55,709 nt of DNA from Thermoguttaceae bacterium (GTDB lineage: Bacteria; Planctomycetota; Planctomycetia; Pirellulales; Thermoguttaceae). This document shows, one piece after another, positions 36,566-39,409 of the stretch. The notes below the pieces were generated by a model, which worked only from the letters and a program-made list of their open reading frames with translations, had not been told where the DNA came from and searched no databases. The stretch spans positions 1 through 55,709 of the forward strand of contig JANXBW010000026.1 in NCBI GenBank assembly GCA_025060325.1, in the 5' to 3' direction. Position numbers and translations under genes: made by a program. Numbering within the stretch: the first letter of the stretch is position 1; the number at the start of each line of letters is the position of its first letter.

Positions 36566-39409
36566 TTATCTCATCCGGCGTGAACCACCACAGACCGGGC
36601 AACTGACATTTCCGCGCGCCCCGCAATCTAGACACGGAACGGTCGTCGGTTCCCGGACGATGATAGGCCTACCAGTCATCGGATCGTGACCGAGCACTCG
36701 TTCTCGAGTTGTGCTGATCGAGCCATTGCCGCAGCGTTCGTTCGGACAATCCACCCAGCCCTCCCCATTGCAGCGCAGGCACCACGTATCGAGCCAGCCG
36801 AGGCCGCTCCGTTGACCACCCGTGCCGAATGAGACCGGCTTGGCTAGGCACTGAATCAACACCACCGACTTCTCAGCATCTTTGACGATCTCCGGAAGCT
36901 CGCGGGATATTTCCAGACCACGGCGGAGGGTAACATCAGGCAGGGCTTGCTCAAGCAAGTCCACCAGTTTGTCGGCCGGTTCAGCAACTGCAAAGTTCAT
37001 GCCAAGAAAACCAAAGCGGTCGACGGGGACGGCCACCACAGTCCCCGAGGTGTCGACAAAAGGCCCGCCGCTATTGCCCGGGTTGGAACGGAGGGCGATG
37101 AGATATTGGTGCGAAAGCTTTCCGTCGCCCGGCTCGGGGGGCGCACTAATTATCCCTCGTGTCACCTTGATCTCGGCTCCCAATAGTTCCGGAACGGGAA
37201 AACCAAGTAAGGCTACCTCTGAACCGGCCGGTAAGTAATTTTCCTCCGTTCGGATGGGCATTGGCTGGCCGGACCAATTCTCGCAGTAAAGCAATGCCAG
37301 ATCCACGTTAGGATCATCAGGGAGAAAGGCCACTTCGGCGTAGGCCACGGGCTTTCTATCCTTGTGGGGAATAATCCCAAACAGCGTCCCCTTTTCGACG
37401 ACACGCCGGTTGGTGACAATATAGTTTGGCGCCACCACAAATCCGCTTCCGAACCCGACCACGCGTAGCTCTTCTTTACGAGCAACTGCCGGACGTGGCC
37501 CCCGAACTGGCAGTGCTGGCTCAAACAGGCCATCAGCAATCAGCAAATCCCAAGACAGGGGCAGAAAAATAAAGCCCCGGGGAGTCCCTCCACCTCCACC
37601 GCCCGCTTCCGGAGCAAGTTCGCAAGCCCGCGTGTACAACTCGGCAAATGATCGGGAAGTGGCGGGCGAAAGCGGCAGAACTTTGCTATTATCTGCAAGG
37701 AGAACCACCTTAATGTTGTGGGTCACTTCGGGGCTGCCACCAAGTTCCAATGCCTTTCGGAAAGCTGAAAGGGCCGACGCCGGCGCCCGATTTCGCAGTT
37801 CCGTAAGCGCAAGGTTATTCCATGCCCCTAAATGATCCGGCTTTCGCTGCACACACCGCCTGAAGCACTGCCGGGCATCGTGGAATTTGGGACCAGCAAC
37901 GGCATAGAGCAGTCCGAGCAAGAAATCCGCCGAGACAAACTCCGGATCCAGCCGACTTGCTTTTTCAAACTCGTTGATGGCGGCCTGATCACTGCGGCCA
38001 ACAAGCAGCAATCCCTTTTTAAAGGCGGCCCGGGCATCTTTCTTCCGCGCCTTCCAGTCCTCGGGTACAACCCACTGCTCCCCTAACCGGACCATCTTAT
38101 TAGCCGCCCGCTTCTCCCAAACGGGTAGGTGATCGCGTGCTTTTTCTTTTTCAGCCTCCGTGACTCCCTCCCACTCGAGGAAGACCTTGTAAAGGAGGAG
38201 CATTTCCAGGGCAAACCGCACATCATTGCCCAAGGCGTCCAATCGGGTCTTCGTAGACGCCCCGTTGGCCCGGAGGAACACCTCCGCAGTTTTCCGGTCC
38301 GTGATCAGTGGTTCCGGCAGCTCAATGCTCCGGTCTTGGATGAGCTCCTCCACTGCAGGGGGCTCTGCAGGCTGGACGGCCGGCTGAGGCAGGGGGGATA
38401 CCGGCTCGGGTTGCTCCCGTTGACTTGTGTCGCCGGCAGCTGGGCCAGGCTTTTCCGGCGCCGCGCGAGCCGGTTGTGGAATTCCGCCCACACCACCCCC
38501 TCCGGCCGCCGGTACCGGGCCGCCTAAGAAAACCGCGGGCGGAGGTTGATCACCCGATCTCTTCGAAGGCACCGCCTTGGCTTCAGGCTCAACCTCCCGC
38601 AGCTGAGAACCTGGCACAGGGTCCGACCCACCGCGCGACGGTCCCGCACTGAGGCGCTCGGCAGCGGGGATGAGGGCGGAGTCGCCACCAGCCTGAGCTG
38701 GAGCGGGAGGACCTGGCTTCCTTGCCACCGCCTTGTCCAAACTGAGACGGTGGATCAGAAGCCCGATAAGCGCAATTCCCCCGACAGCCACCGCCGCGAC
38801 AACCCCCAGTTTGATGTAGTCTTCCCATTTTTCGGCAATTGTCGGGAACAAGCGGTGACGGCCTCCGTCGGCATCCCGCTTCTCCTCTTCCCTTTGCTTT
38901 TTGAGGTGATCACTAGCAGGTTGAGAGGCCGAGCGAAATTCTCGGCCTGGTTCAGCGGCCGGATAGTCCTTCAGGGCGTACTCCTCTTCGGAGGCCGCCG
39001 ACTCCGCGGCACTAGCGGCACCAGTTGACTGCGGACTAAGTGAGCTCGCCGCGACCTGAGAGCCTGGAGCAGTAGCCGCCGGGCCACCAGCGCCCTGGGA
39101 ATCGGGGACTCCCTCCTTAGTAGGTCCCCCTGCCATCCTTTGCCGAAGTTGCTCGTCGTAAGCAGCCTTCCGTTTGGGGTCAAGAAGGCAGCTCTGCGCT
39201 TGAGCAAGAATAGCGAGAATCTCCTCGGCCTCTTTGGCATGGGGACCGCGTAAATGAGGTTGAATAGCCAGCTGCCGAACTTGTACCGCCTGAAGGATAA
39301 GGAGCTTGTCGTCTTCGAATCGCCGCAATCCAAGCAGGCTGTAATAGTCCACAGGTCTGCGATCAGGCGGGATACCAAGCCAGTTCAGTAGAGGATCGAA
39401 TTCCGGCAT
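36566..39409 (-). CDS. DnaJ-like / TPR / HtrA-like protein with zinc finger, catalytic His replaced
   Basis: 947 aa in order: a DnaJ-like N-terminal domain of planctomycete type (about 18-92: DYYSLLGLRRFEDD, ILAQAQSCLLDPKRKAAYDE); a low-complexity linker; one transmembrane helix (about 197-217, GVVAAVAVGGIALIGLLIHR); a Pro/Glu-rich stretch; TPR units (about 455-560, HLGAWNNLALTELRNRAP); a trypsin-like HtrA-type domain (about 620-850); and a C-terminal DnaJ-type zinc finger (CLRCNGEGWVDCPNERC ... CLDCGARGNVSCPVCGG). In the protease domain the Asp (D703, NVDLALL) and Ser (S780, GNSGGPF) are present with normal spacing, but the His position of TNxHVV is Arg (TNRRVV, R669). It may therefore be inactive, acting as a binding or chaperone-like membrane protein. 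Confidence 0.9.
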   Translation of the reverse strand: MPEFDPLLNWLGIPPDRRPVDYYSLLGLRRFEDDKLLILQAVQVRQLAIQPHLRGPHAKEAEEILAILAQAQSCLLDPKRKAAYDEQLRQRMAGGPTKEGVPDSQGAGGPAATAPGSQVAASSLSPQSTGAASAAESAASEEEYALKDYPAAEPGREFRSASQPASDHLKKQREEEKRDADGGRHRLFPTIAEKWEDYIKLGVVAAVAVGGIALIGLLIHRLSLDKAVARKPGPPAPAQAGGDSALIPAAERLSAGPSRGGSDPVPGSQLREVEPEAKAVPSKRSGDQPPPAVFLGGPVPAAGGGGVGGIPQPARAAPEKPGPAAGDTSQREQPEPVSPLPQPAVQPAEPPAVEELIQDRSIELPEPLITDRKTAEVFLRANGASTKTRLDALGNDVRFALEMLLLYKVFLEWEGVTEAEKEKARDHLPVWEKRAANKMVRLGEQWVVPEDWKARKKDARAAFKKGLLLVGRSDQAAINEFEKASRLDPEFVSADFLLGLLYAVAGPKFHDARQCFRRCVQRKPDHLGAWNNLALTELRNRAPASALSAFRKALELGGSPEVTHNIKVVLLADNSKVLPLSPATSRSFAELYTRACELAPEAGGGGGGTPRGFIFLPLSWDLLIADGLFEPALPVRGPRPAVARKEELRVVGFGSGFVVAPNYIVTNRRVVEKGTLFGIIPHKDRKPVAYAEVAFLPDDPNVDLALLYCENWSGQPMPIRTEENYLPAGSEVALLGFPVPELLGAEIKVTRGIISAPPEPGDGKLSHQYLIALRSNPGNSGGPFVDTSGTVVAVPVDRFGFLGMNFAVAEPADKLVDLLEQALPDVTLRRGLEISRELPEIVKDAEKSVVLIQCLAKPVSFGTGGQRSGLGWLDTWCLRCNGEGWVDCPNERCGNGSISTTRERVLGHDPMTGRPIIVREPTTVPCLDCGARGNVSCPVCGGSRRMR

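Follow-up and report, generated by a model that had tools for sequence, protein, structure and literature searches.

Within the 55,709-nucleotide stretch of Thermoguttaceae DNA analyzed here (the window), one gene encodes a multidomain protein whose HtrA-like domain carries an arginine in place of the catalytic histidine, and which belongs to a planctomycete family that appears to have lost its protease triad on about ten occasions. We hold with moderate confidence that the window protein is best read as an exported, membrane-anchored, non-catalytic scaffold for the binding of client proteins. The repeated loss of the triad in this family, with the zinc-binding and repeat domains kept, suggests such a role at the level of sequence.

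The reading frame of the window gene is open and begins with ATG, and its product combines a J-like domain, a membrane helix, a linker, TPRs, an HtrA-like domain, and a zinc finger (Table 1). Most of the architecture given in the original prediction was borne out, as TPR_16 scored above its Pfam cut-off, only one stretch of the protein exceeded the hydropathy threshold, and all eight cysteines of the C-terminal finger lie where they had first been read. The DnaJ-like N-terminus stood as a J-like domain and fell as a true DnaJ domain, with a match to PF00226 of 17.9 bits that is below the cut-off of 27.8 and with no HPD motif between helices II and III. No title found in literature searches described this architecture, as judged by the titles, and a scan of the genome contigs with the whole window protein found no relative.

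Table 1. Features of the window gene and its product (positions in the window).
Feature	Positions	Strand	Basis
Whole ORF, 947 aa: J-like domain, membrane helix, linker, TPR, HtrA-like domain, zinc finger	36566..39409	-	
J-like N-terminal domain, residues about 1-91, without HPD	39137..39409	-	Pfam, motif reading
Single predicted membrane helix, residues 201-219	38753..38809	-	hydropathy scan
Helical TPR region, residues about 390-600	37610..38242	-	Pfam and model
HtrA-like (chymotrypsin-fold) domain, residues about 649-826	36932..37465	-	Pfam, model and structural match
Arg669 codon CGT, at the catalytic His position	37403..37405	-	sequence
Asp703 codon, triad Asp kept	37301..37303	-	sequence
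Ser780 codon, in NPGNSGGP, triad Ser kept	37070..37072	-	sequence
Eight-Cys zinc finger, Cys877 to Cys940, BSD2/DnaJ type	36590..36781	-	sequence, model, profile and fold search

The protease fold is no chance match, as Trypsin_2 (PF13365) aligned to residues 654-794 with a score of 60.7 bits versus a cut-off of 27.6 (E 3.4e-16). Residues 366-947, modelled with 59 family rows, gave a mean pLDDT of 89.7, and the protease part of the model superposed on DegS with a Z of 20.4 and an rmsd of 2.2 Å over 166 residues; DegS, DegP, HtrA1, and Rv3671c all fall within Z 18-20. The predicted model thus has the HtrA-type chymotrypsin fold of the HtrA (S1C) proteases without their His-Asp-Ser triad, and no PDZ domain was present among Pfam matches up to E 10. 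A C-terminal PDZ domain is usual, though not universal, in this group. The window protein differs from HtrA, DegS, and MarP in the missing histidine and in having no PDZ domain in Pfam, while a membrane anchor is presumably something that it shares with DegS and MarP. A further structural relative, at Z 18.2, is the HtrA-like fold of the S1C-NTF2 ectodomain of RsgI9 from Clostridium thermocellum (PDB 7sjy), which we take to be a one-pass membrane protein and which, unlike the window protein, is an anti-sigma factor with an NTF2 domain.

The triad of the window protein reads R-D-S (Arg669, Asp703, and Ser780). Translation confirmed that Asp703 and Ser780, the latter in NPGNSGGP, occupy the places first assigned to them and that TNRRVV (T666-N667-R668-R669-V670-V671) stands in place of TNxHVV. 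The CGT codon of Arg669 is one transition away from the His codon CAT. Whether this arginine is conserved was answered in the negative by alignment, with phenylalanine at the site in the orthologue from genome G001 and, across 59 aligned rows, arginine in only 3, histidine in 37, and other residues elsewhere; the idea of a conserved arginine was rejected and, because it is not conserved, Arg669 has no evident function of its own. Orthologues with His, which would have counted against the original prediction, were represented only by non-syntenic homologues, namely the G002 copy and a copy on contig C45 of the window genome (G000). From the sequence of the site we infer that catalysis is gone in the window protein.

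The window gene is convergent to the gene for tyrosyl-tRNA synthetase (TyrRS). Among the best 80 of 243 TyrRS matches, the nearest named relative is from an uncultured Thermogutta (73%) and all titles are planctomycete (Planctomycetota, Pirellulales, Thermoguttaceae, and planctomycete genera) except two, Holophagaceae and Candidatus Eisenbacteria. A conserved location of the family beside TyrRS was considered and rejected, as no member appeared at E 1e-5 in any of these best 80 named TyrRS loci, a good number of which were short; the arrangement is shared by the window and G001, the only other genome seen with this locus. Between the two, identity is 70-88% for five neighbouring genes and 47% for the window protein; a sixth neighbouring gene, truncated where the fetched sequence ends, matched at 34% over 297 residues and is possibly not orthologous. 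The syntenic orthologue in G001 has the triad F-D-R, in which Phe replaces the His and Arg replaces the Ser, so loss of the triad is not specific to the window genome. The two proteins are sisters on the family tree (support 100/94), so their ancestor had probably already lost the histidine, in a single event, before the serine was lost in G001. As Ser780, Asp703, and the NPGNSGGP loop are intact, the loss in the window protein may be recent.

A family member is present in 3/3 genomes of the window genus examined. Intact-triad copies occur in G002 (L033 6396-9426; G002:C186), with an in-frame stop and a frameshift, and on contig C45 of the window genome (L031 1158-4446; G000:C45), with one frameshift. 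Both intact-triad copies of the genus are thus disrupted in frame and both broken-triad copies are open. The disrupted frames may reflect pseudogenes or assembly errors, and because of them the genus offers no clean active comparator. The C45 copy (L031 2230-4446) has, before its TPRs, two repeats that we take to resemble secretin/STN-type domains, and no J-like domain was seen by eye in the upstream stretch read. Near the G002 copy lie genes that, in our reading, resemble the protein-arginine kinase quality-control pair McsA and McsB (L033 11111-12914; G002:C186).

The wider family was defined as TPRs plus an HtrA-like domain, with or without the finger, and was collected with a profile built from seven members. 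This profile was searched against overlapping genome samples at four taxonomic levels. The order sample (396 genomes) gave 89 with E up to 1e-20, many of which were protease-only, and the phylum sample (392 genomes) gave 19, with all matches below 1e-60 within the class of the window. At 1e-40 there were 4 in the sample of the taxonomic family (119 genomes) and 31 in that of the class (397 genomes). We kept 68 rows that cover the TPRs and protease domain, admitting L103 and L108 despite poor TPR coverage. Rows were dropped from the tree when the triad region was missing (L112, L114, L119, L128, and the first C45 piece), when they were partial (L107, L138, L145), or when they were protease-only (L110, L113, L116, L118, L120-L124, and the second ORF of L158); every one of these rows with a readable triad was HDS. 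Among the 68 rows, 45 have H-D-S and 23 are broken, two of the latter (L105 and L106) being identical across the kept columns. The triad columns, with the three residues flanking them on each side, were removed before the trees were built. A quick search with 68 rows gave 10 state changes, and a careful search with 59 rows, from which nine near-duplicates (eight intact and one broken) were left out, again gave 10. This corresponds to about ten independent losses of the triad, a count that may be off by a few because L095, L117, L109, and L115 form long branches. With these losses and a syntenic orthologue that has neither His nor Ser, the pseudo-protease assignment of the original prediction is well supported.

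Other HtrA-type genes in the genomes sampled seldom lose the triad singly, and the studied family often does. This follows from 88 other Trypsin_2 domains of nine genomes, six of them covered completely except for one 27-residue match and three covered in part. At first 84/88 passed reading, and the remaining four were three HDS and the unreadable L231. The final tally was 73 H-D-S, 12 in one conserved cluster, one Q-D-S (L247), and two unreadable (L230 and L231), so that outside the cluster 73/76 were intact and one was broken, as read with a profile built on the studied family. In the cluster, seen in 6/6 genomes examined (L206 at G000:C55:157250-161800, L211, L218, L225, L238, and L245), three HtrA-type genes are adjacent, the first with an intact triad and the next two with broken ones. 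The second gene has Ser replaced by Ala (PGAAGG and variants) and an ambiguous His call, and the third has Ser replaced by Tyr (NYGGP or NYGGA). The NYGG type was broken in 12/12 loci read, drawn from a phylum sample with matches in 33/199 genomes, one of these loci being the gene of G000 itself. This three-gene cluster may deserve separate study.

The finger of the window protein has cysteines at 877, 880, 888, 893, 926, 929, 937, and 940, and with these it shows the four Cys-pair motifs and eight cysteines of the DnaJ/BSD2 type, with a hairpin between as in the BSD2/DnaJ cysteine-rich domain. It differs from that domain in its second motif (CxxxxC), in having no true J domain alongside, and in its weak scores. 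The window finger had no match at E 0.1 to the Pfam DnaJ or BSD2 models; among 38 family fingers, which had been picked for eight cysteines, 19 matched BSD2_CRD and 16 matched DnaJ_CXXCXGXG at E 0.1 or better. Modelled separately, the finger had a pLDDT of 94.4, and its top structural match was BSD2 (Z 4.8, rmsd 3.9 Å over 55), followed here by E. coli DnaJ (Z 3.5, rmsd 6.2 Å over 61), both at low Z. A profile search with the finger placed Embryo defective 2737 first, with BSD2 and DnaJ among the top matches, and a Foldseek search with just the finger found nothing at E 0.001. A finger is present in 15/23 broken-triad rows, and all 15 keep eight cysteines; 23/24 intact-triad rows with a finger do so as well, the exception, L157, being cut short. 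Plastid chaperones with BSD2-like and other DnaJ-type fingers and no J domain have been reported (PMC5818400, PMC7865324). By resemblance to these, the window finger may be put to chaperone use.

True J-domain function of the N-terminal domain was judged unlikely, as HPD is missing. The letters HPD occur in 2/29 J-like rows, which represent one G002 gene counted twice, and there lie outside the usual place. On the basis of DnaJ biochemistry, a J-like domain without HPD would not be expected to stimulate DnaK. All 60 related genomes searched (60/60) match the window protein and most of the matches listed cover only its first 90-150 residues, so the J-like domain is common there. A hydrophobic stretch precedes the TPR and protease module in 53/68 family rows, in a scan of stop-to-stop frames in which some stretches may precede the true start, and further hydrophobic stretches, mostly weaker, lie within the module in some rows. 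To the eye, many family members begin with what looks like a signal peptide or a lipoprotein signal, and in many exported members (N-termini of L034, L035, and L149) the signal peptide is followed by a domain that we take to resemble SHD1. The module of the family probably sits outside the cytoplasm, and for the window protein we infer that the J-like domain lies inside and the TPR, protease, and finger module outside.

After loss of the triad, the protease domain usually changes faster than the TPRs, and the finger holds. Identity in the TPR, protease, and finger regions was 59/43/64% between the window protein and G001, and in the other broken pairs it was 72/60/57 (L034-L148), 45/26/36 (L034-L035), 56/46/51 (L129-L130), 57/46/52 (L130-L131), 57/44/43 (L129-L131), 38/25/33 (L125-L126), and 46/47/57 (L125-L127). 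The protease domain was 10-19 identity points below the TPRs in 7/8 of these pairs, which are not mutually independent; the exception, L125-L127, had no deficit with TPRs compared over only 69 columns. Intact pairs gave 51/50/51 (L153-L154), 43/46/34 (L152-L153), 45/44/33 (L161-L162), 34/43/41 (L167-L155), and 41/40/38 (C45-G002, with 49 TPR columns), a protease deficit of at most 1 point in 5/5 intact pairs with TPR data. Mixed pairs ranged from no deficit in L161-L165 (54/54) to 20 points in L159-L160 (48/28). This pattern fits a relaxed constraint on the cleft of a module that is still used, and it also fits partial decay.

Under the scaffold reading, the single membrane helix would join a presumably cytoplasmic J-like domain to a module outside the cytoplasm, made up of TPRs, a catalytically inactive HtrA fold, and a zinc finger of the BSD2/DnaJ type. 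Client proteins, whether unfolded or specific, may be bound by the TPRs and the cleft of the HtrA fold and left uncut, the finger may help to hold or fold them, and the whole protein would serve in the cell envelope as a holdase or an adaptor scaffold. The faster evolution of the protease domain after loss counts against this reading, as plain decay fits too. Of the membrane-bound pseudo-protease platform originally proposed, the pseudo-protease, anchor, and finger stand, and the platform role is an interpretation that fits the evidence.

A dead copy might instead bind an active paralogue in a mixed complex and activate or restrain it, as MamO does in promoting MamE-dependent proteolysis (PMC4794232), an explanation that we consider rather unlikely. 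The window genome does contain the triad-intact C45 copy and 13 Trypsin_2 matches in all, and G000, G064, and G858 each have an intact and a broken family member. However, of the 23 genomes with a broken member, these three were the only ones to show an intact member as well among the rows kept, and the intact copy of G000 is disrupted in frame and on a different contig. Duplication with loss happened three times in the MamE family (PMC4794232), and MamO and degenerate MamE copies resemble the window family in having an HtrA-type domain that lost its triad or activity several independent times; the dead copies there are paired with an active copy, whereas such pairing is not general here, and MamO has a TauE transporter domain and metal-binding di-His where the window protein has TPRs and a zinc finger. 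Losses number about ten in the window family alone, versus several in the magnetotactic MamE copies. MamO is, by analogy, a precedent for a non-catalytic HtrA-type domain.

That the protease part is an unused and drifting relic, with the TPRs and finger alone carrying function, is unlikely in our view. The deficit in most broken pairs and the divergence of the window protein from G001 relative to its five neighbours would be expected of a relic; however, the fold is confidently modelled, the glycine after the Ser position is kept in 23/23 broken rows, and the protease domain is present in 23/23 broken rows, which were chosen by its coverage such that deleted forms would be missed. It is improbable that the protein is still a protease in which Ser780 and Asp703 act with a base supplied by the substrate or by another residue. 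NPGNSGGP and the aspartate are intact and two other broken rows keep the serine (EES and SDS), but G001 has no serine at the site, and arginine is a poor general base. Takeover of the role by another histidine was rejected on the alignment, in which no other is conserved near the site (His682 in 1/59 and His767 in 2/59 rows). A sequencing or assembly error in the His codon, conceivable since the change is a single transition (CGT for CAT) and the assembly is a draft in 89 contigs, is very unlikely, as different changes removed both His and Ser from the sister orthologue and a loss in the window lineage is thus expected from the tree.

Returning to the scaffold reading, we extend it, with low confidence, to the family as a whole. 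Proteolysis may be optional in this planctomycete family, with the HtrA fold, TPRs, and finger forming an envelope client receptor that passes clients to the finger, and with the cutting site shed repeatedly because it is dispensable to the module. Fusion of this module through the membrane to a J-like domain in the window genus could make a transmembrane reporter of the folding state of the envelope. The best-studied bacterial HtrA-type pseudo-proteases that we found in the literature are the magnetosome ones. About ten independent losses, together with intact relatives and a constant finger, amount to a natural experiment that asks what the HtrA fold does without cutting and whether a chaperone-like role alone maintains selection on it.
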